Positions 8,401 through 56,712 of a DNA stretch of 64,000 nt are shown in pieces. The position numbers and the translations under genes are program-made. The notes beneath the pieces are model-generated. The model made no database searches. It was given only the letters and a program-made list of their open reading frames with translations, and was not told the origin of the DNA. The first letter of the stretch is position 1. Every line of letters begins with the position of its first letter. Origin of the DNA: Nymphaea colorata (lineage: Eukaryota; Streptophyta; Magnoliopsida; Nymphaeales; Nymphaeaceae); contig NC_045139.1 in NCBI RefSeq assembly GCF_008831285.2, positions 33,267,706-33,331,705 of the forward strand, given 5' to 3'.

Positions 8401-9562
8401 CCTACAGTTTCCTAACTAGGAGAACCAACAAACCAAAAGCAGGTTAGCAAAACATGAGAAAAGGAACCCAATTCTGGGAAAAACCGCACCAAATGGCATA
8501 TGTCATACTCCTAGAGCGAGCTCAAAGAAAAGGGTACCTGAATGAATTCCTTATTCTCCGCCGCATCATTGAATCATCCTTTGCAAAGTACCACTGTGCA
8601 ACAGTCCCACTGATTATATACACCTGGGCTTCGATCATCACCGCGATCGACCAAAGCATCGTAAGAATGGCCAATGCGTAATATGCAGGCACCCATCGAT
8701 CTTGTTTCCAGACGCAGGAGTAATCACCAGAGCTCTCACTTAACTGAGGTTCAATCTTGCCATTAAACCGCGCAAAGATCAGAAACACAACTATGGGGAC
8801 GAAGTAAATCAGAAGGGCAAGCGTCAAGCTCGGCAAAAGGACAAACAACCCCTTGTTATGCTCCAAGGCATTCGCAGAAGTGGCTAAGATCCTCACTGTC
8901 AGCTCAATCCTGTGCCAGTTCGCCACAATTATCCACACAATCACGCCAATCACCAGGAAAACGAACAGGAGCGCAAGAATCCGGTAAACCAGGGGGAACG
9001 ACTCCCTGCAATTCTCCCCAACAGTGCAGGCAACGAACCAGAAAACGTTGAAGAAGACAGGGATCAAGACGAAAAAGGGCAGCGAGGCGTAGACTACCTG
9101 TTTGGCGTAATTCTTCAGCAGTAAAAGGATACCAAACAGAAACGGCACGCTCAACACCGCCGTTATCACAAGGGTCCAAACCAAATCTTTCAGAAACGAA
9201 TTGGCTTCGACGTTAGATCGATTCAGCCACGACCATAATCCTCTTTCGACGAGAAGGGACGAGGACACCTTGCAGGAGGACGTATTCGTGTCGTAAGCGA
9301 ACGAACTGACGTTGCTATAGTTGGAATTATGGTTGGTAATGCAGAAAATGCCGAAACAAATGGTGCAGAGTACGAAGATGATGAAGAGGAAGAGGAAAGG
9401 GAGGTCGTGGAAGCGCCTCGGCCCATAGTTGAAGGCGATAGGAGGGTACGGGTTAGACGAAGAGTCGATCTCATCTGCTCTGCTCTCTACTGGTGGTGCT
9501 TCTGATGGAGGATTCTTGTGAAGCAGCAGAGGCTGGGATGGCTCATCTGTGCTGCTAGCCAT
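2409..9562 (-). CDS. Choline transporter-like (CTL/PNS1 family) membrane protein
   Basis: The model is complement(join(2409..2666, 2761..3106, 8538..9562)), three exons with GT-AG introns, giving 542 aa. This is close to the ~550 aa I recall for the Arabidopsis PNS1-type proteins. The first ~55 residues are hydrophilic (MASSTDEPSQPLLL). About ten hydrophobic segments follow. The family core is clear across the exon 1-2 junction (NSFR/NAFGPSFGTVCFSG), then LRCCVNFLLSAIDFLNKF and, in exon 3, VLDNVIDTIYICFAIDRDK. The start at 9562 is the first ATG in frame. Family members are multi-pass proteins of plasma or Golgi membranes linked to choline or lipid traffic; the substrate of this one is inferred only from family. 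Intron 1 (3107-8537) is 5.4 kb and contains a MITE. Intron 2 is only 94 bp. No break is seen. Confidence 0.87.
4481..4841. mobile_element. MITE-like element, TTGTCACAA terminal inverted repeats
   Basis: An AT-rich, non-coding element of about 360 bp inside the long intron of the CTL-like gene. The left end reads ATTGTCACAAAAAACG. The right end, reverse-complemented, reads ATTGTCACAACAAACG. The 7-bp direct repeat GTCAAAT flanks it at 4474-4480 and 4842-4848. The interior carries repeated ATAATACCCGT motifs. A second, opposite-orientation copy lies near 52395-52690. The superfamily is not clear; a 7-8 bp duplication would fit hAT-like or Mutator-like elements. Confidence 0.7.
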
Positions 9563-11435
9563 GGTTAAAGGAAGCGTGAGAAGGGAGAGAATATGATAAA
9601 AGTAGACGGGGTGCGGGCCTCCAGGGCTGATGTGCTTCTTGACTCTTGGCTCATGATAGGATTGAAGACAACGGGTTGGTGGAATGATTGCTGATTTTTA
9701 TACTAAGAATCTTAGCTTTGCATGAAACCTCTGTTAATTGTTATGCACCGATCGATTGCTTCAGTACCGTATCCATTCGATCTGTTCCTGCCGGAGAAGT
9801 GGTCAATTATTCCGAGATTTTTAAAAAAAATTTCCTTTTGCTGTTGAGCTGTCTGGGTTGGTATCATGACGCTTCTGATGACGATAACAGATCCGGTTAT
9901 TTCCTAGATTTATCTTTCACATAGATCTTTCGTCTTCACCTCACTCGCGGTCCCATAGAACAAATTCCCCATAATTAATGCTCATAACTGTGAAGTGCGA
10001 TGAACTATTATAAAATAATAAAACAATAGGTTTCGCACAAAGAGTGATTTTGACAGATGATGTAATCTAATAAAGAATTCGATGGTGTGGGGATGAGCTC
10101 ATTGGACGTGATTCAGAGTAAGTTTATTTTCCGTCATTTCATATGTTTTTGAAAATTTTTCTGCGTTGTTAAGCGAGCTTAAAACGGTTAGATGCAGATA
10201 AGTTATGCTCTTTTTTCTTATTTGAGCATATAGCAAATGTTATTAATTAAAACAATTAAAAATTTTTAAATCATTTTTTAAGACTGATACAAGCTGATAC
10301 GAAAGTAACTAAACGATGCCTACCACCAACAGGTTATATTTTAAAGCTTTGGATACAGAAACGAGTTTTACAACATTGGCATATTCGATTTCTAAACGAG
10401 GGACCAAAAACAAAGCGCGGTGCTTCTTGTTATCATGGCTTAAGTGTTGGCCAGCTTGCTCTTTCATGTAATACTCCAAACAGCTTGAATCGGGATCGAC
10501 AATGACTATATTGGGATCGACGATGAGTTCATGGAACTCTACTGTCTCCTTAAGTGAATCCAACTGTAAACAAATATTATATATATATATACACACACAT
10601 CTATGGGCGAGGATAAGAAGAAAGGAGGTATTCATTGGCGTATTCAGTTTTGCCATCTCTGCCACCGGTCAACCAGTGCAGCGTTGCTGAGATAAGGATT
10701 CTTAGAAGTCTTCCCGTCAAGAGGAGGGATTCATAACTCCTCATAAGTTAAGGGAAAAAAAAAGAGATTGCTTGAAACAACAAAAAAGTATGTTTACCAG
10801 CTTGAATTTAGATCGATACCGTAAACTTGGAAATGGAACTCATTGCTGATTCAGAAATTCAAGCACTAATATGTAAAAAATAACTAAAATGGAACAAGTT
10901 GATAGATTAAATTTAAATCCGAATCAGTAGATTCACAGTGGCTCGGACGATCCACAACCAGATATATATATTTAAGACTACCTTCAATCTGATGAAAGTA
11001 CTTTCATGGGCCAGTCATCTACAGTTAGATTCTCCATGGTAGTAGCCGTGCAAACGGATACCAACAAGTTATCGTACCTCAAAGTACCCAAGGTGAAGAC
11101 TTCAGGCATGTACAGATCCACGCTAGATCTGAGACCAACTTTGTTTTCTCTAATGTTTGCAATTGTGGTGGTATACCAGCGCCTCTCTCTCTCTCTCTCT
11201 ATTATATATACACACATACACACCGCAGGAGGTGAGCCGAACTTGTTTATTAAATCATAATATATCTCATAGAACAGATATTTCTTACAAAGATGTTCAA
11301 TAGATCTCCCGTAAAGACCTCATATCCGCAAAAAGTTCCATTTTCAGATACAGAAATTTCATAATAACGACATTAAAATGCCAGGAAATTTCATTTCTAA
11401 GCCTACTGAGAGTTGCAACGTCCTGTTTTTTCCGT
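9563..11435. other. Intergenic region with unassigned ORFs
   Basis: This holds the promoter side of the CTL-like gene and the 3' side of the first rhodanese gene. Minus-strand ORFs at 10309-10665 (118 codons, including FLVPRLEIEYANVVKLVSVS) and 10984-11223 (including LDLYMPEVFTLGTLRYDNLL) look mildly protein-like. Short TA/CA and CT repeats run through or next to them (10577-10600, 11181-11222). I could not assign a family, so they are not called as genes. Confidence 0.35.
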
Positions 11436-13492
11436 TCACAACTCATCCTTGGGCAATTTCACAACATTGAATCCGTTGCCGAGCCAAGAACCATATCCGC
11501 CTTCCATGTTTCTCACATTCTTGTATCCCTGCAAGCACAACCCAGAGTTTGTCAAAAGATCAACATAATTGATTTCCTGCAATTTTTGCTTCTTGTTGTT
11601 ATTTATATGCAAAATCCTTAAAATATTAAACAAATAAATGATACAAACATAGGAAAAGTATTCTTGCCATGAAACCTGCCTTCGACTTTCTTAAAATAGC
11701 CAGTGAGCATTTCTTTCCGCATAAAACTTGAACGAAGCAAGCAACTTATATCGACTTTATTTGGTTTTTGAGCATATTTTTCAAGACCAGCAAATTCATA
11801 TTGGATCTACTTTATCTACATATAAATCTAGAGTGCTAATATAGTTTCAAACTCGGATCTGAATATGGGAAGCAACTGAAATATGGCTACTCTATTCAGA
11901 CCAAATATGTTATGTGAAATCACGGACCTTTTAAAAACATAAATTTTAATTTGATCAAATAAGCAAATGAATTCGTTATCCGCAGATTTTTAAAATTCTG
12001 TTGCTGACTGATGAGATTCAAAAACTGATTTTAACAACATTGGCCAGATAGATTACACCTTTGGCCTCCATAGGTATAACTGGTTGACATATTTAAGCGT
12101 ACATATTTCTGCTATTCCAGCTACCGCAACGCAATAACAGAATAAAAAAACTTACAGCTTTAAGAAGTTCAATGCTTGCATCCAAAGATCTGATCCCACA
12201 TTGACATGCCTGGATCACAACCCATTTCCAAACCTTTGGTCAGTTTCTCTTCGATCGAGTGAATAAAATCAATTATTTCGACAGATCTTGCAAGAAGAAC
12301 ATCTCAAAACAAAAATGATTTCTTTGGGAAACTAAAAATAGTGTATTCTGCTCAAAGGAGGTTACCACGACAAGTTTGTCGTCCTTACTGCAAACAGCTG
12401 AAACTTGCTCTACAAATCGAGGATTTACCTCTTTACCTGAAAAAGAGAAAAAAAAATCAATTTTCATGTAGAATCACATAAAGAAACTGTTGGATCCCAA
12501 GAGGAGAGGGCGGAGAGAGAGAGAGGGAGTACCTTCTGCTGTGAAAAACCAGAAAGGGACATTAAGAGCATTCTCCACATGTCCATTTGTAAACTCTTTC
12601 TCGGTCCTGCAACAACAGAGGCAACACCCATAAGATACATTTACAGATAAAATGAAAAGAAAATTCTAAAACGCTTAGCACCAACTTGATTCAAGTTATT
12701 CTCGACAGGAGCAACTTGAATATAAGAAAAGTTCATGAGAACAAATATAAGACATTTGAGGTTATTGATGGTTTGTAGATTACATTCCAAAACTAACTCC
12801 AGAATACAGACCAAGTTCTCATGTTCTATTACTCGCATAAGTAAGGAAAGTTACCGCTCACAAATAGAGTTCTGGCAAATTTTTCATAAACATCTTTTTT
12901 CCAGGATTATTACGAGTTATGCATTTTTGCTAAACTTGGGGGTCAAACCAACTGGAAGAAGACTAAAAATTGCAATGGAAATTGTGCAACAGAACAACAA
13001 AAAAAATGGCCAACCATGAAAACACACAAGAAAGGCCATTTAATCAATATAATTACTTAAAATTGCTTGCATCAGATGGCACCTTTTTCCCGAAAACCTC
13101 ATTGCAGTAAGCTGTCTGATTTTATCAATCTACTGTTTTTGCCAATAAACTTCAACCATCGATCAAAATGATCCACACAGGTAAAAGTGATTCTAATACG
13201 TACCCATATTTCATAAATTCTTGCATTCCATTACCCCGAAACGACATTAGCGAAGAGGAAGCCTAATTAATTTGGGGTTCTGATCGGCGTCCTGAAGTTA
13301 AGCTAATTTAGAGAGAGAGAGAGAGAGAGGCAAAAACCTGACGTCAAGGAAGCGGTAGCCGGAGGCCAACAGATCCTTCGCCGCTTGGACATCGACGGTG
13401 ACGACGGCCTGCTCGCTGCCGGCGGAGACAGAGAGGAGAGTAACAAGAGAGAGACAGAAGACGAGCAAGGCGAAGGGCCCAACACGAGACAT
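11436..13492 (-). CDS. Rhodanese-like sulfurtransferase with signal peptide and C-terminal KDEL
   Basis: The model is complement(join(11436..11528, 12156..12209, 12366..12436, 12533..12606, 13338..13492)), five exons, 148 aa. The N-terminus (MSRVGPFALLVFCLSLVTLL, then SVSAG) is a clear signal peptide. One rhodanese domain follows: VTVDVQAAKDLLASGYRFLDVR (residues ~31-52), KEFTNGHVENALNVPF, then the active-site loop CQCGIRS with the expected catalytic Cys at residue 102 and Arg at 107, and GYKNVRNMEGGYGSWL near the end. The last residues are KLPKDEL followed by TGA. Rhodaneses of this plant STR16/STR18-like type move sulfane sulfur; some relatives reduce arsenate. Signal peptide plus KDEL predicts the ER lumen. 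An in-frame ATG at 13561 would give a longer hydrophobic leader. I chose 13492 because it matches the start of the neighbouring paralogue. Only the first intron donor (GTTTTT) is weak. Confidence 0.87.
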
Positions 13493-14699
13493 GATGCCGC
13501 ACAGAATGAGGAATATAGAGAGAGGAAGATGGGAACGGCCAAAGGAAAACCTGGAGATCAATCTCAGGAGATGATGTTTAATATCTTACTGCCCACTTCC
13601 CCTTATATAAAAGAACAAAGGATACATGGGGCCATTAGAGAAACGATGGGGAGCTCCTACTCCAACTCCGAGAAGGTGAGAACTGGTACGCACGACGGCA
13701 CCGCCCTCTCGCTCGTTGTTTTCTTTTTAAAACTCCTCTATTTGCTGCCGTGGTAAGCAAAGGCACGTTGGTTTGTCTGTGCTCCGGCGGTCTACTGGAT
13801 GGCGTGCTACCCACTGAAACAAATGGGAAGAAAAGTCCGCAAGCTGTGGAGTCTGAGAGGATCCAAGTTCGGGTGAGGTCACTTAAGTTCCAAGTCTTGA
13901 CTGGTTAATGATTTTTTTTAGTTCCTTGCCAACATAGGCCGAAAGTCTCGATTATATAGCTCAAAGGGTATGTTATGCAGTACGTCTCTTATTTAGTTTA
14001 CGAGATTATGCTTTTATACTGTAATGGTTTAATTTGTGAGATTATGTTCTTATACTGTAAATGGGTAGGTCTTACAAGTAACTTGAAGCACATAGAGATG
14101 CCGCCATTATCGCCATTTGGTATCGATGCAACTTTGAGCCTTGAAACAAAGGAGAAGAGGAAGTTTAGACTCTCACTTAACAATAAGATTAACCCTCCTA
14201 CTCACTCAAAATATATGCAGAAACAGGACCTAAGTTGACCTGTAGTTGTTAATATACTAATAAAGAGATATCATAAGTTTAAAATTTTCTTTTATGACGC
14301 TGCTCGCCCAAGTAAAGATCTTAGAACCATATAAAGTTATAAACACTGGAAGACTTGAAAGAATTAAGAGGGCCCCGTTGTGGCTTTTGAAGTTATCCTC
14401 GGGTCTTCGGTTCATGGATCAAGCGCTCGATATCTCAAAGTCAAAACCTCAGACCGGGTGCCAATGGTAAAGTTCAGCACACTGAAAAGCCAGCCAGCCA
14501 TTTGAAAAACTAATTAAGGGGCAAAGATGGGCTTCTCGTGGCCCCTCCTTCCCCAAGTCGGAATATCTGGTCAGGTTCATCAAATGAATCCATCAGCCTT
14601 TACCACCGCGCGAATTTAGGGTTTATTCCACTGAGAACCTTTCACTTTACCTGAGATTAGGGTTCATTTGATCATTTGAACTCTCTCTTTCTCTCTCTA

Positions 14700-14753
<54 letters not shown>

Positions 14754-14957: not shown

Positions 14958-16032
14958 TCAAAATTCATCCTCGGGTATCCTCACGTTGAAACGATTTTCC
15001 AACCACGCAACAAACCCCCCTTCCATGTTCTTCACGTTCTTAAAGTTCTGCAACCACGCCCATTTGCAAATTACTTCAAAATTCAAAGCAGGTAACAGCA
15101 GTAAGCAATGAAGCAAATCCATGGAGAGCGTGCAGTTTCATCGTCAACTTACAGCTTTAAGAAGGTCGATAGATGCATTCAATGACCTGACGCCACTACG
15201 ACATCCCTGTACCATCACATAAAGAACGCTTCTTCAGATCCCCATTACTTTTTTAGTTTTTTAGAATTTTTTTTTTTTAATCGGAGTTGATGTTTTTATA
15301 TCACGTAATGAAGCAGATCTTCTCAAAGGAAACACGGTCAATTACCACAAGAATGTGATCATCTTTGCTGTAAACGGCTGAAACCTCCTCAATGAAACGA
15401 GGATTTTGCTTTCTTCCTATAAGGGAAAAATGAGGAGAAGAATCGATTCATCGAACCGGAACAAGAAAAAACTATAATTGACGTCATTTCGGGACTTCCC
15501 CAATTTCACTGCAAGAAGCGGAGGGAGGAAAGGTACCTTCAGGTGTGAAGAACAAGTAGGGAATGTTTACGGCGTCTTCTACATGGCCCTTAATGAACTC
15601 TTCCTTTGTCCTGTAAACAAAAAATACATGCCCACCTGAAATCGTCAACAGGGGAGAGATAGGAAGCTTATGAATCTAAGAGTAAAAGCTCCTACATCAT
15701 AGAACAACCCAAGTACATGCTCCATTTTCTCTGACATTGATGAAATTTGAGGAAAATTTTTCCCTTGCTTTATCTCCAGAGAACAGGCCTTTTGTTTTTT
15801 ATTTTCTTTTTTCTAGAGAGAAGAGGAAATCAACCGCCTCAGAGAGAAAGAGAAATCGGGACAGGCAATTGAACCTGACATCAAGGAAGCGGTGGCCGGA
15901 AGCCAAGAGATCCTTTGCGATGTGCACGCTCACGGTGGCGACGGCTGCTTCACTACTGCTACAGATGGTGGGGAAGAAGGAGAGATTGAAGAAGAGTAAG
16001 AAGAGAAAGAAGATTGGCGCAGCGGAAGGCAT
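14958..16032 (-). CDS. Rhodanese-like sulfurtransferase with signal peptide, C-terminus EDEF
   Basis: The model is complement(join(14958..15047, 15153..15206, 15346..15416, 15537..15610, 15875..16032)), five exons, 148 aa. It is a tandem paralogue of the gene at 11436-13492: exons 2, 3 and 4 have identical lengths (74, 71 and 54 bp) and the intron phases match. The N-terminus MPSAAPIFFLFLLFFNLSFF is a signal peptide. The rhodanese domain has AKDLLASGHRFLDVR, the active-site loop CRSGVRS (catalytic Cys about residue 103) and NFKNVKNMEGGFVAWL. By eye about two thirds of the mature residues match the sister gene. The protein ends RIPEDEF, in the position where the sister has KDEL. If EDEF is not retained, this copy would be secreted or sent on. 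A sulfurtransferase role is inferred from family; the physiological substrate is unknown. No frame damage is seen. Confidence 0.86.
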
Positions 16033-16943: not shown

Positions 16944-17531
16944 GGTCGTGTTTGATGGCCCATTCTAGGCATTATCTATGTGCATTCATTGTTCAATAGA
17001 ATGAAAATTAAACAACATTCAATCATATTCAGATTTAGACTGAAAACTAAACAGTCTAATGAGATTCAAATTTGGATTTAAATAAATATCCCATCAGATT
17101 AAAATTTACTTTAATTGATCCATTTTGAAAGTCAATTCTTCACATATACAAATGTCTTAGTCAGATTCAATTGTAAAATTAAAGGTCAAATTTGGATCTG
17201 ATTCAAGTTGTGAGTTCAATTCTTCACATATACAAATGTCTTAGTCGGATTCAATTGTAAAATTAAAGGTCAAATTTGGATCTGATTCAAGTTGTGAGTT
17301 CAATTCTTCACATATACAAATGTCTTAGTCGGATTCAATTGTAAAATTAAAGGTCAAATTTGGATCTGATTCAAGTTGTGAGTTCCTTTGCTTAATTCAT
17401 GTTACCATTCGAATTTGAATCAGACAATGTAAACATCCAATAAAAAGGATATAGTAGAGATCAGCATCCAGCATGAATCCAAATGCATTGACATCCTAAA
17501 GGTAAGGCCTTCTCTTCATCGAACACACCCA
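16944..17531. mobile_element. Tourist-like element with internal tandem triplication
   Basis: The left end GGTCGTGTTTGATG follows TAA at 16941-16943. The right end CATCGAACACACCCA precedes TAA at 17532-17534. Reverse-complemented, the right end matches the left with small differences. The 84-bp triplication at 17132-17383 lies inside. It starts 20 bp after another Tourist-like element. Confidence 0.5.
17132..17383. repeat. Three tandem copies of an 84-bp unit
   Basis: Units begin at 17132, 17216 and 17300, each starting TCAATTCTTCACATATACAA. They are almost identical; one difference is TTAGTCAGATT in the first against TTAGTCGGATT in the others. The near identity points to recent expansion. 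Confidence 0.92.
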
Positions 17532-29236: not shown

Positions 29237-31998
29237 TCACCTTCCAACACGGGTTGGACAGTTGCGTTTGTCATGTCCTGTACCTGAACAAACCTTACAT
29301 TTTCTTTTTGGCCTCTGAATTCTCTCCCATTCAAGCGCATTATGGTCCCCTTCTAACTCTCCTTTTTGCCTCTTTGTTAGTGGATGAAAGACAGCCTCTT
29401 TATCTGTCAAAGAATTATCATGTCCTTGCACAGATAAAAGTGGGAATGCTCTTTTATTCATGTTAGCAAGTCTTTCAAATGCTCCATCTAGTAGTTTCAT
29501 AGCCATGTCAAATGTATCTGTTGAGGAGCATGCTTCAATAGCAAACTTCATAGCCCTTTGACAAAGTAAATTGTGCCTCGATTTGATAGATATGTTTGAA
29601 TTAGCTAGGACATCAACACCATGAACATCCTTATGTAATGTTTTCTTAGCATCCATTGTATATCTCCTTAAGAAATAGTGATTTGGAAGGTCTGTTACAT
29701 CCAACCTTTGAAAAATTTTTAGCACATGCATACATAGAATACCTGTGTACTCAAAGTTTCTGCAAGTGCATGCAACATTTGAGTTTGAAATGTTCATATC
29801 CACGACATACACCCATCCATCATCGCCATGTGTAACTTCAAACTTAATCTTTTCATTCTCTCTTAGAATTTCTTTAGCCTTGCACCTATTAACCTCCTTT
29901 AGCTGGTTAAGAAATTTTACAAATACAGCTCGTGTGTATAAAGAAGCTGCTTTAGTTTCTATCTCCCAGTTATATGCAAGGGATGGTTTTCTAGAACTTG
30001 ATTCAAAGTCAAACTTTTCCTCTGCATCATATCTAATTAAAAGAGCTCTTTGAAAGTTCTTAACAAAATCAAAGAGTCCAGTACTTGAATTCATGAAATT
30101 CTTCAAGAATGCATTGATGCTCTCTCTCTTTTGGGTTGTAGACATTCCTGCAAAGAAGGCACTTCTAAGATATGCGGGTACCCATTTTTGGCGAATGTTA
30201 TATAGTGATTGAATCCATTCCTTTTCTCTTAAGTCATAACCTGTGACAAAGGCATCCCATCGTTGTTCAAATTCCTCAACTGTCAGTGAGTCTTTGACGC
30301 AATCAAAGAACATCTTTCTGAAACCATCATGTTCATTGCACATTTTGTTCAGCTTGTCCCAAACCTCCTTAAGAACATGCCATGTGCAGAAAGCATGGTG
30401 AGTTGTTGGAAAGCATTTCTCAATAGCCCTTTCAATAGGAAGTGCATGATTAGTTATAATTGTTAATGGGGCCTTACCAGACATTGCTTGAAGCCATTGT
30501 CTGAACAACCATTTAAATGCTTTTTCATTCTCTTCAAACAACAACCCACAGCCAAGAAGTACAGTTTGTAGATGATGATTTACTCCAACAAATGGAGCAA
30601 ATGGAATTTTATATTTATTTTTCTTGTACGTGGAGTCAAATGTTACAACATCACAAAAACAACTATAGCTATTTCTTGATCGGCCATCAACCCAAAAAAA
30701 GTATTTCATAAACCCATATTTATCAAACTTGACAGCATAAAGGAAACCTGGGTCTTCAGCTTGCATGCGTTGAAAATAGTCAATTACATTTTGTGCATCT
30801 TCTCTTGCAAGCATCAACCTTCTTGCAGTGAGCAAATAATTATGTGTGTCTTTATCCGTAAAGCCCAAGTTCTCACTTCCATTAGTAGATTTCTTTTTTG
30901 ATGTCAATAATGCATCATTAGCAATTGACATTTCAGATGAAAATGGAAGACTTCTTGCTATAGATGTAATGGAGCACTGAGGACGAAAATTATGCCCTCG
31001 ACTAGGAGAAACCAGTTCATGATTATGTTCTTTGACAAATACAGTGATCTCCCATTCTTCAATATTGTTTTTCAGTTTTTTCCTCACAGCCATTCTTGCT
31101 CGACAACATGAACGAGGAGTCATAATATTATTCTTTGGCTTAATAGGATTTTCTTTCCTCCGACTTCTTCCTTCTTTGGAACAACAGAAGACATGACCTA
31201 TTATTGTTTTGTTGTCCTTAGTAGATTTAGCATTCGTCATAGTACGAATTGTAAAACCTTCACGTTTAGCATATGCATCATAGAAAGATCTTGCCATATC
31301 CACAGACTTGAACCGCAAACCAACATATGGTGCTAATCCTTGAAAAACTGAACTTGACGGTAAATCTATCTCACAACTACGATCATCCTCTTCGTTGTTT
31401 TCCTTGCCCATGGCAATCCTAACATCTAGTTCATTTGCATGACAATTCTGCAAGTTTTTGCTAGATTGTTGAACCTGCATGTGAGAAACATGATTGGATC
31501 TATGTTGTAAAGCTTCTCCATGAAAAGCAAGATTTACTAGATTTATATCAGCATTTGCTTGCCCTTCACCCAAACCTTGATATAAGGATGTGCTTGACCT
31601 TCGTGTTTCTGTCCAAAAGGGAAAAAGTAATATATGGAATATATGAGTTTTACGTATGCACATCTGCTGTACATATTTAGCTATGTATGTATACTATAGA
31701 CAATTAAGCACATGATTTTTACCTTCATCATAGTGGATTTCTATATCTGAGTCAAAGAAGTCTAATGCATTGATTCCAGTGAAATCACCAACATCATATA
31801 CCATATACCACTCTAGAAGAAGAAGGCAATTTATAGAATTAGTAAAATTTCATTTTTCAACATCAGATAATGGCAAAATTTATCAACAAAAAATTGTAAC
31901 AACATTTTATTCTTACCATGACTGTCTCCTTTGTTGATGTTATCCTCATCTACAATACCCACACTCTCAAGACTAGACGACTCCGATGATGAATCCAT
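29237..31998 (-). CDS. FAR1/FHY3-family protein (domesticated MULE transposase)
   Basis: The model is complement(join(29237..31608, 31723..31812, 31917..31998)), three exons, 847 aa, a usual length for the family. After an acidic, serine-rich N-terminus (MDSSSESSSLESVGIVDED), a FAR1 DNA-binding zinc-finger region lies at about 150-255 (GLRFKSVDMARSFYDAYAKR to VKEHNHELV). The MULE transposase core follows: DVVTFDSTYKKNKY near residue 380, and TIITNHALPIERAIEKCFP near 442, with FCTWHVLKEVW. The SWIM zinc finger CTCRNFEYTGILCMH is at about 672-687, and a zinc knuckle CKVCSGTGHDKRNC at about 828-842. Family members are nuclear transcription regulators derived from Mutator-like transposases, many acting in light signalling. 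The acidic residue usual after TIIT is Asn here, so transposition activity is unlikely. A weak donor overlaps the stop codon (GGAAG/GTGA), so further 3' exons cannot be excluded. Confidence 0.9.
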
Positions 31999-37648: not shown

Positions 37649-37720
37649 ATCAGAGTGGCGCAGCGGAAGCGTGGTGGGCCCATAACCCACAGGTCACAGG
37701 ATCGAAACCTGTCTCTGATA
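37649..37720 (+). tRNA. Initiator tRNA-Met (CAT)
   Basis: A 72-nt cloverleaf. The acceptor stem ATCAGAG pairs perfectly with CTCTGAT, with discriminator A at 37720. The anticodon CAT is at 37681-37683 in loop CCCATAA, closed by stem GTGGG/CCCAC with the three G-C pairs typical of initiators. An A-T first pair (A1-U72) and T-loop ATCGAAA, lacking the usual TTC, also mark it as an initiator. The internal B box is GATCGAAAC. A T-run terminator is at 37740-37743. The T stem reads ACAGG/CCTGT, where I recall the usual plant form as CCAGG/CCTGG. This is a paired change that keeps the stem. The gene appears functional. Confidence 0.95.
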
Positions 37721-42511: not shown

Positions 42512-42718
42512 TTTTTCAATTTTTTTTTACAATCATATGATTTTTTTTCTCAATCACAATAGATCAAATAATCCTCATGAGTAAGCTACTGACTCGCAAA
42601 AGACTACCATTCAATTTTCCACTCTCATATATATTGTCTATTGTCATTCTATCCCCTCCATTTCTTGGAAGAACAGTTCATAAATCTGTTGTTTGTTTTG
42701 TTTCGAATAAATGGGCAG

Positions 42719-43137
42719 AAAATCAGCAATGCCGATACCAATGTGGAACGCTGCATCGCAGATTTTAATGGCTACTGGCTACATAGTCATGGCAGTTGCA
42801 CTGCCGTGGTCGGGTTGTGCTTATGGTGCTAGAGGGGCCGTCTCAATTCCGACGGCATCTGAGCTGTTCGGCCTCAAATCTTATGGTCTCATGTACAACC
42901 TTCTGATCCTGAACCTCCCACTTGGTTCTTTCCTGTTTTCCGGCGTCTTAGCCGGAATTTTGTACGATAAGGAGCCCGCCTTAGATGGTTCAGGCTTCAA
43001 CACCTGCGTTGGAGCACATTGCTACCGTTTCGTCTTCTTGATTATGGCTGTCGTCTGTGCCATTGAAGGGTCTTTATCTAAAGGTTCAAGCGATCAAGAA
43101 CTGCTAAGTAGACAGTGCATCCTCTGCTAAGAACTGA
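42719..43137 (+). pseudogene. Truncated copy of the last exon of an NFD4-like transporter
   Basis: The segment matches exon 3 of the gene at 53890-56712: MWNAASQILMATGYIVMAVA, IPTASELFGLKSYGLMYNLL, LPLGSFLFSGVLAGILYD and FNTCVGAHCYRFVFLIMAV are all preserved. Similarity continues upstream through the intron end (TTCGAATAAATGGGCAG against TTTGAATGAATTGGCAG), so the copy arose from DNA, not from mRNA. Exons 1 and 2 are absent nearby. An in-frame loss of about 24 bp removes part of one membrane helix. A second loss after AVVCAI removes the last helix and changes the frame, so the tail reads GSLSKGSSDQELL. It is probably not functional. Many substitutions are synonymous or conservative, which suggests either moderate age or past selection. 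Confidence 0.85.
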
Positions 43138-53889: not shown

Positions 53890-56712
53890 ATGGGCGTCGT
53901 TCTGAGACCGAGCTCGGCGACTCTCTCGGCGTGGAAATGGCTGGGGCTGGTGACGGCCGTCTGGGTTCAGGCCGTCTCCGGCAACAACTACACCTTCTCC
54001 AACTACTCCGGTGCCATCAAGTCGCTGCTCAACCTGAACCAGGTGGAGCTCAACAACCTCTCCGTCGCCAAGGACATCGGCAAAGCCTTCGGCCTGCTCG
54101 CTGGCTTCGCTTCCGACTACCTGCCCACGTGGGCCATTCTCCTCATCGGCTCTCTTGAGGGCTTCGCCGGCTACGGCGCCCAGTGGCTCGTCGTCAGCCG
54201 CCGGATCTCCCCTCTCCCTTACTGGCAGGTTCCGCCCCTCTCCGCCGCCGTTCTTGCTTTCTTGATATATGTATCCCCTTTAGAACTCCATTTTGCGCGT
54301 ATATCTGCTCTGATATAAAATATCGACACTATTTGATATGTTATTTATGGAGCCCCTTTCCCATAACGTATCGTTTCTTCGTTGTAATCTTGGTGCTTAG
54401 TTCTTCATACCACATTTGGAGTTGGGTTTTTTCCCCTTGTTGTTTGGTGCATATTTTAACCTGTTGAATTGAAGATTAGATATGAAACTTTCTTGGTGTT
54501 GTGTTGGGTGCGCGATGGTGGGTCTTGCAGATGTGTGTGGTGCTGTGCATGGGCGGAAACAGCACGACCTGGATGAACACGGCGGTGCTGGTGACGTGCA
54601 TCCGCAACTTCCGGCAGAGTCGCGGGCCGGTTTCCGGGCTGCTGAAGGGATACGTAGGTCTCAGTACCGCCATCTTCACGGACCTGGCCTCCGCCCTCTT
54701 CGACAGCAACCCCTCTTACTTCCTGCTCATGCTCACGGTCCTTCCTGGCCTCGTCTGCGTCACCGCCATGGTCTTCCTCCGGGAGCTTCCCGCGGAGGAC
54801 GCTGCAAGAGACCCACCCGAGAAAGAGTTGCGATGCTTCTCCGTCCTCAACTTCCTGGCGGTTGTTATCGCCCTGTACCTGCTGGTCAACGATCTCACAG
54901 GCGCCCACGGCGTGCTGTTCTCCAGGGTTTTCTCCGCCGGACTGGTGGTGCTCCTGGCGACTCCGCTCGTCATTCCGGCGTACATGGTAGTCGGGCCTGG
55001 AGGGAGGAAGGGAGCAACGGCGGCCGATGGAAATGACGTCGAGTCGGTGAGGCAACCATTGGTGGCGGCAGAGCAGGAAAGGAAGGTGGAAGAAGAAGAA
55101 GGGGAGGGAGAGAAGCAGGTGGAGCACGTTCGGGGAACGGTTGTTATCGGGGAGGAACACACGATCGGGGAGGCAGTTCGCACGTGGGAGTTCTGGATCC
55201 TGTTCGGGTCGTTCTTGTGCGGTGTGGGAACTGGTCTGGCGGTGATGAACAACTTGGGGCAGATCGGGACTGCTCTCGGGTACGCGGACGTATCCATGTT
55301 CGTCTCTCTCACCAGCATCTTCGGTTTCTTTGGCCGGATTTTGTCGGGTTCGCTGTCGGAGCACTTTATCCGGTTAGTTCCTTGCCTAATGCGCTCCCCT
55401 TTTCGACTTACAGTTTCCGGTGACTGTTCCATGCATTTTAAACCGTTCAGATTCGTTCACTCCGGCCAGGTCGGCCGGTTAGTACGAACTCATGGAGTTC
55501 ATGTTAGCATCTAATTTCGATCCTTTACTGACAAACATCAACATCAGAAAAATGCCATGAGAATTGGCTTATGGCGGGAATTTGCTTATTTCCTAGTAAG
55601 CTGGTCTCAACTTGGTTCAACAATAAGCGTAGAGGGTGTTTGATGAGGCAGGAACTGTGATTCTATAATTAAAATTCTCATTTTTGATGAAATGAGAATT
55701 GTGTTATCAAACAAAAAGTTGTGATTCTAGAATTGTAAGCTCATTCTGGAATCAAAATTCAGGAATCATGTAGATTAATGATTTCAGAATTTTAGAATTT
55801 TTTCATGTCTCTTTAAGGCAGATGTTATGATGGTTGTTATTCAGCAATTTTAGAATATTGATTCCTGTTTTATCAAACACATGTTTTTTCTATTCTAAAA
55901 TCAAAATTTCAGACTATCAAACACGAAAGGAAAACTAAAACTGAAATTTTCATTCCAATTTCAGTTTGAAGTGAAATTTTGTTTCTAGAATTTTAGTTCT
56001 AGAATCAGAATTCAGTTCCATCAAACAACCCCCTAATGAGTTCAGCAGGAATTGGGTCTATAGCAGCGAGCCAAGCGTGAGTAAGTTGTTTTTGTCAGCT
56101 TGTCGTAGGCTCATTAGTGAAATAGAGTTTCTAACTTGATTTATTTTGATGGTGGTACGTGAAAGAAGAATATGTTGATTGACCAACTTCATGAATCTGA
56201 ATTCTTGTTGTTTTGAATGAATTGGCAGGAAATCGGCAACACCAAGACCAATGTGGAATGCTGCTTCCCAGATTGTAATGGCTGCAGGGTACATAATCAT
56301 GGCCATGGCGTTGCCTGGATCCCTCTATATTGGATCGATCGTGGTGGGAATGTGCTATGGTGTTAGGATTGCCGTCTCAGTTCCTACGGCTTCTGAGCTC
56401 TTTGGCCTCAGATATTATGGTCTCATCTACAACATTCTGATATTGAACCTCCCTCTTGGTTCCTTCTTGTTCTCCGGCCTTCTAGCCGGAATTCTGTATG
56501 ATAGGGAGGCAACCTCAGGGGCTGGAGGCTTCAACACCTGTGTCGGAGCGCATTGCTACCGGCTTGTGTTCTTGATCATGGCTGTTGCCTGCGTCATTGG
56601 CTTTGGATTAGATCTTTTGCTCTCTTTCAGGATGAAGGATGTTTACCTAAAGATTCAAGCAACCAAGAAAGCCAGGGCAGAAAAGGAGAGTGCTTTCTCT
56701 GCTAGAAACTGA
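53890..56712 (+). CDS. NFD4-like/nodulin-like major facilitator transporter
   Basis: The model is join(53890..54228, 54531..55372, 56229..56712), three exons, 554 aa. The nodulin-like MFS signature is clear: SGNNYTFSNYSGAIKSLLNL (residues ~31-50), VAKDIGKAFGLLAGFASDYL, GYGAQWLVVSRRISPLPYWQ at the exon 1 end, then MCVVLCMGGNSTTWMNTAVL in exon 2. About 12 membrane helices are evident. An acidic cytosolic loop (KVEEEEGEGEKQVE) lies near residues 298-311. A second MFS half includes SFLCGVGTGLAVMNNLGQIG and FFGRILSGSLSEHFIRK. Exon 3 carries SELFGLRYYGLIYNILILNL and the FNTCVGAHCYR motif. The family contains NFD4 and other poorly defined transporters; the substrate is unknown. Exons 1-2 are very GC-rich against AT-rich surroundings. 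A partial copy lies at 42719-43137. Confidence 0.92.
55632..56033. mobile_element. Tourist/hAT-like MITE in intron 2 of the NFD4-like gene
   Basis: The left end GAGGGTGTTTGATGAGGCAG and the reverse-complemented right end GGGGGTTGTTTGATGGAAC form imperfect inverted repeats over a 400-bp AT-rich interior full of TTCTAGAATT-type motifs. The right side is followed by TAA. The target duplication is not clear. Confidence 0.55.

Follow-up and report, generated by a model that had tools for sequence, protein, structure and literature searches.

Rhodanese-type enzymes are, to our knowledge, not usually placed in the endoplasmic reticulum (ER), the compartment to which a C-terminal KDEL or HDEL retrieves soluble proteins. 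Single-domain sulfurtransferases with a proposed role in protein persulfidation have been placed in the cytosol (STR18) or in mitochondria (TSTD1) (PMC11763069). The plant enzymes carry the signature Cys-X-X-Gly-X-Arg, and STR18, as well as STR16 in the presence of thiosulfate, acts on roGFP2 (PMC8931425). Here we describe a gene, referred to as gene A, that lies in a 64,000-nucleotide stretch of the Nymphaea colorata genome (NC_045139.1, positions 33,267,706 to 33,331,705, forward strand; hereafter the window) and encodes a rhodanese domain between a signal-peptide-like start and a C-terminal KDEL. On balance, its product (protein A) is probably a soluble, ER-retrieved single-domain sulfurtransferase, with the location suggested by its sorting signals and the activity by its family.

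Among solved structures, the best sequence match of protein A was Arabidopsis At5g66040 (PDB 1tq1; E 2.5e-26, 44% identity over the aligned domain), which we take to be STR16. Both At5g66040 and STR18 resemble protein A in having one rhodanese domain with a C-x-x-G-x-R loop. However, the match to 1tq1 spans only residues 29-138 of protein A, without its signal peptide or KDEL, the loop of 1tq1 reads CQSGGR where that of protein A reads CQCGIR, and STR18 is cytosolic (PMC8931425), unlike the ER location proposed here. Human TSTD1 (6bev) is likewise a single-domain sulfurtransferase and matches protein A by sequence (E 1e-9) and by fold, but it is called mitochondrial (PMC11763069). Escherichia coli PspE shares with protein A a signal sequence and a single rhodanese domain and resides in the oxidising periplasm (PMC2593051); unlike protein A, it is bacterial and has no retrieval signal. 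Assignment of protein A to PspE itself was rejected, as it scored 28.2 and 25.9 bits with the NCBIfam families NF007627 and TIGR02981, which have cut-offs of 102 and 126.3.

The catalytic domains of plant protein disulfide isomerases (PDIs) are thioredoxin-like, with CxxC, in contrast to the rhodanese with CxCGxR of protein A. The resemblance lies in the C-terminal KDEL: the six Arabidopsis PDI homologues studied end in KDEL and are discussed as ER-retained, and KDEL-terminated fusions of plant PDIs to green fluorescent protein served, and were discussed, as proteins of the ER (PMC4030966). No ER-located plant rhodanese was described in the titles or abstract openings of the open-access matches listed, which is not proof of absence, and in passages of two plant papers that contain both "rhodanese" and "KDEL" the two terms were unrelated.

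Results

Gene A encodes a single-domain rhodanese that ends in KDEL

The sequence-only reading had proposed a five-exon gene, and its coordinates proved exact (Table 1). All introns of gene A are gt-ag, and the joined exons form a single frame of 447 nt encoding 148 amino acids (MSRVGPFALLVFCLSLVTLLSVSAG / SEQAVV...ACQCGIRS...KLPKDEL). M1 is the sole usable ATG start: there is no ATG in the upstream interval 13600-13493, there is no in-frame Met upstream of M1 within its open frame, and the next Met is residue 126, so that a start of protein A without the signal sequence is unlikely. A TATA-like box, the ATG-free leader, and AATGAA (at 11395) and AATAAA downstream of the stop fit a normal transcription unit, from which gene A would be expressed.

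The single rhodanese domain that had been read from the sequence was recovered by Pfam, where Rhodanese (PF00581) was the one family in protein A (residues 36-134, E=5e-18; score 65.9 bits, cut-off 22.2). This domain spans the mature protein. In an alignment of 21 rows, consisting of protein A, the product of its tandem paralog gene B and 19 bacterial rows, C102, G105, R107 and the stretch D50-V51-R52-T53 (protein A numbering) were invariant. Protein A has the catalytic signature Cys-X-X-Gly-X-Arg as C102-Q-C-G-I-R107. An AlphaFold model from the single sequence was useless (predicted local distance difference test score, pLDDT, 39.2) and was replaced by a model built from the 21-row alignment, which reached a pLDDT of 89.6 and a predicted template modelling score (pTM) of 0.78, the first 30 residues being least sure. 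Foldseek searches with this model returned 139 PDB chains at E <= 0.001, the best 50 of which were, judging by their titles, rhodaneses or rhodanese-domain proteins; 6mxv ranked first and 1tq1 third, and GlpE, PspE and human TSTD1 were also among these 50. Protein A as modelled folds as a rhodanese.

The signal-peptide-like start and the KDEL tail together exceed chance

Signal peptides were scored by hydropathy and with a heuristic von Heijne matrix rather than with SignalP. The best cleavage site of protein A lies after residue 25 (score 8.86), followed by that after residue 24 (8.13), and its best 12-residue hydropathy mean was 2.92. What had been called a clean signal peptide in exon 1 is thus retained as a signal-peptide-like start with a hydrophobic core, at the strength of this heuristic. 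As controls we took, from all frames of the window, the 288 open stretches that begin with Met and are 45 amino acids or longer, genes A and B included. By score alone, the value of protein A was reached by 3 of the 288 and that of protein B by 13; score and hydrophobicity jointly were matched by 2 for protein A (itself and one other) and by 5 for protein B.

The last exon ends in AAG GAT GAG TTG TGA exactly as had been read, with KDEL directly before the stop. Among 5525 stop-terminated frames in the window, that of gene A is the only one to end in KDEL, and none ends in HDEL or RDEL. From assumed residue frequencies, the chance of a [KH]DEL tail is ~3 in 100,000, corresponding to ~0.9 per 30,000 proteins and to fewer on signal-peptide proteins. 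Protein A combines two features of the KDEL class, a start that is signal-peptide-like by the heuristic and KDEL at the very C-terminus. Their joint occurrence exceeds chance, with the caveat that three of the four paralogs found have the P-E-D tail core in common, and little change is needed to reach KDEL from that core. Sequons of the N-x-S/T type, considered as a hint of ER entry, are absent from protein A and were set aside.

The active loop of protein A contains an extra cysteine

The active loop of protein A, C102-Q-C104-G-I-R107, contains a Cys-x-Cys, which is unexpected. In a bacterial sample without plant rows, made up of the best 80 among 404 or more relatives that two short patterns retrieved, C-x-x-G-x-R was present in 80/80 and a Cys at the third place of the loop in 0/80. 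This Cys is also absent from 1tq1 and from the four other copies (B to E) found in the genome. After the signal peptide, the cysteines of protein A are residues 92, 102 and 104. Protein B has the catalytic Cys103 alone after its start peptide, and a Cys24 at the predicted cleavage site.

Gene A is one of five related copies found and, with its tandem paralog, shows purifying selection

Gene B lies directly upstream of gene A on the same strand, and the two proteins are identical at 84 of 147 aligned positions. The signal-peptide-like start of protein B scored 6.62, and past this start the protein has one N-glycosylation sequon, N-A-S at residue 111, just after the active loop. A long AT microsatellite is located at 14700-14751 between the two genes.

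Nonsynonymous (dN) and synonymous (dS) divergence between genes A and B were 0.29 and 1.71 by NG86 (ratio 0.17), and 0.31 and 1.36 by YN00 (ratio 0.23). As estimated from the two sequences, this range of dN/dS shows the tandem pair to be under purifying selection. With dS near saturation, the duplication is old, and both genes have remained protein-coding. Counted from aligned codon 26 onward, dN was 0.22 and dS 1.87 (NG86), whereas the first 25 aligned codons gave a dN of 0.79, a dS of 1.26 and a ratio of 0.63, indicating much weaker constraint on the signal region.

A search of the N. colorata genome (407.8 Mb, 783 contigs) with protein A gave at least 25 matches: five were the exons of gene A, four belonged to gene B, 11 to a cluster on contig C9 containing the paralogs C, D and E, and five were weak. 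The weak matches have E from 1.3 to 8.3; four of them (L104, L105, L107 and L108) lie in retroelement-like frames, and the fifth is L106. The P-[EK]-D tail core is common to four of the five copies, A and three of the other four. In a 14-row tree, A grouped with B at 89/90; none of the 11 inner branches reached the full-support mark, and the bacterial row L007, on a long branch, sat among plant rows. The sequence-only reading had not recorded the distribution of KDEL among the copies, the EDEF tail of the neighbouring gene, the extra cysteine in the active loop or the purifying selection on the tandem pair.

For paralogs D and E the first exons are tentative. Repeated, degenerate exon-1-like units appear to lie upstream of the conserved first rhodanese exon (L109 3400-2500, L110 3800-3180), suggesting exon duplication upstream of these two genes.

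An exon-by-exon six-frame search of the genome for the Pfam rhodanese domain gave three matches and missed gene A, because split genes score low. One match (L002) gave the impression, from its open reading frame, of a molybdopterin-synthase-type rhodanese domain. The other two, L001 on contig C624 and L003 on contig C386, lie on contigs of 30 and 71 kb with neighbouring genes that look unlike those of the plant; our impression is that they are possibly foreign eukaryotic DNA in the assembly.

Table 1. Features of gene A and its paralogs. Positions refer to the window unless a locus is named.
Feature	Position	Strand	Description
Gene A	11436..13492	-	five exons; ATG at 13492, TGA ends at 11436
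Gene A exon 1	13338..13492	-	ATG, signal-peptide-like start (residues 1-25), rhodanese domain onset, to ...FLDVR
Gene A exon 2	12533..12606	-	74 nt; equal length in all five copies found
Gene A exon 3	12366..12436	-	71 nt; equal length in all five copies found
Gene A exon 4	12156..12209	-	54 nt; catalytic loop C102-Q-C104-G-I-R107; equal length in all five copies found
Gene A exon 5	11436..11528	-	C-terminal KLPKDEL and stop
Gene A KDEL codons AAG GAT GAG TTG and stop TGA	11436..11450	-	
Gene A codons 1-25, predicted signal peptide	13418..13492	-	predicted cleavage after residue 25, or 24
TATA-box-like TATATAAG	13602..13609	-	117 nt upstream of the gene A ATG
Possible poly(A) signal AATAAA	11246..11251	-	downstream of gene A
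Tandem paralog gene B	14958..16032	-	five exons, 148 amino acids, signal-peptide-like start, loop CRSGVR, tail PEDEF
Gene B exons	16032-15875, 15610-15537, 15416-15346, 15206-15153, 15047-14958	-	
Paralog C	L110 6774-5683, contig C9		long hydrophobic start, loop CRNGVR, tail LQVQQ
Paralog D	L110 3258-1434, contig C9		loop CNGGGR, tail PEDETTR
Paralog E	L109 2604-1391, contig C9		loop CQTGNR, tail PEDGSKM

Several other features were noted in the window. A choline-transporter-like frame (PF04515, 1.1e-26) is located near gene A at 8525-9559 (-). An 84-bp unit is repeated three times head to tail at 17132-17385, the copies being 99% alike, and a FAR1/MULE/SWIM protein is encoded in one 818-codon frame at 29240-31693 (-). 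Pieces of a Nodulin-like/NFD4-type transporter at 42711-43127, 54486-55511 and 56221-56709 (+) occupy two or more sites, which suggests copies close to one another. At gathering scores, Rfam matches nothing in the window but a tRNA gene at 37649-37720 (+).

Discussion

We propose that protein A is a thiosulfate/persulfide sulfurtransferase of the plant STR16-18 type that works in the ER lumen. Judging by its signals, it would enter the ER by means of a cleaved signal peptide of about residues 1-25 and fold as a soluble rhodanese, and its C-terminal KDEL would be recognised by the KDEL receptor for retrieval. By analogy with the family, Cys102 would accept sulfane sulfur, with thiosulfate, glutathione persulfide or some other persulfide as the donor, to form Cys-SSH, and this persulfide would hand its sulfur on to thiols, either on luminal proteins or on small molecules. 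Among leaf proteins, those that are more persulfidated in the dark show enrichment of terms for ER folding and processing (PMC10135009), so that acceptors for protein A may exist. The authors of the PspE study suggest that covalent modification of the active cysteine may protect PspE in its oxidising compartment (PMC2593051).

Several observations weigh against this proposal. KDEL was found in one of the five copies (B ends in EDEF, C in LQVQQ, D in EDETTR and E in EDGSKM), and the tails of A and B are two coding changes apart, so that KDEL could have arisen by chance from the shared PEDE tail. The signal peptide was scored with a heuristic matrix and not with a current predictor, its cleavage is a prediction, and one other Met-initiated stretch in the 288 equals protein A on both measures. 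The model of protein A superposes poorly on plant 1tq1 (template modelling score 0.48/0.56, root-mean-square deviation 7.3), and although 13 NCBIfam families match protein A, none reaches its curated cut-off. Finally, we know of no source of thiosulfate or persulfide in the ER lumen.

The first of these points leads to a different explanation, in which protein A enters the secretory pathway and its KDEL is incidental, derived without selection from the family PED(E) tail, so that the protein acts in the apoplast or vacuole, as B and C may. The two coding changes and the tail core shared by four of the five copies would agree with this, as would protein B, which combines a similar start with EDEF, and C, in which a long hydrophobic start goes with a tail lacking DEL. 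Nevertheless, we regard it as somewhat unlikely: with dS above 1, a tail under no selection would presumably have drifted, and an exact KDEL at the stop of a signal-peptide protein should retrieve it whatever its origin, as is established knowledge and illustrated by the KDEL-tailed PDIs (PMC4030966).

The hydrophobic start might instead direct the protein to plastids or elsewhere. Plastids do contain some of the plant single-domain rhodaneses, and the first 26 residues of protein A hold five Ser and one Arg; however, the short n-region, the Leu/Val-rich core with hydropathy up to 2.92 and the small residues at -1 and -3 make such targeting improbable. Whether protein A might reduce metalloids rather than transfer sulfur is raised by rhodanese-related plant arsenate reductases. 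HAC1, with its six-residue loop, is a rhodanese-like protein. This plant protein is an arsenate reductase (PMC4251824). We nonetheless consider metalloid reduction very improbable for protein A, given its six-residue loop CQCGIR and the lack of any obvious way for arsenate to reach the ER lumen. In ACR2/Cdc25-type arsenate reductases the loop is the seven-residue HCX5R (PMC6272796), and protein A was rejected as a member of this type, its six-residue C-Q-C-G-I-R being preceded by Ala. That gene A is a pseudogene or a mis-spliced model with a different true protein is hardly credible, given the intact splice sites and frame, the low dN/dS and the fact that exons 2, 3 and 4 measure 74, 71 and 54 nt in each of the copies A-E.

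Within the proposal of an ER-retrieved sulfurtransferase, the extra cysteine permits a bolder, though rather doubtful, version. Protein A would be a dedicated persulfide enzyme of the ER lumen in which Cys104 attacks the Cys102 persulfide, releases H2S and leaves a C-x-C disulfide for substrates, making it both a luminal persulfidase and a thiol oxidant. If true, this chemistry would couple sulfane-sulfur flow to oxidative folding.

Arabidopsis STR17 (At2g17850), also a single-domain rhodanese, may likewise combine a hydrophobic N-terminus with an xDEL-like tail. If this is correct, the architecture of protein A would be less unique and more likely functional. A mutant of At2g17850 is listed with decreased Agrobacterium transformation (PMC8213393).

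Protein A is put forward as a specific candidate for an enzyme that produces persulfides, or liberates H2S, within the ER, and it makes sulfur chemistry in this compartment directly testable. Should other plants prove to have kept the KDEL, it would define a branch of the sulfurtransferase family assigned to the secretory pathway.
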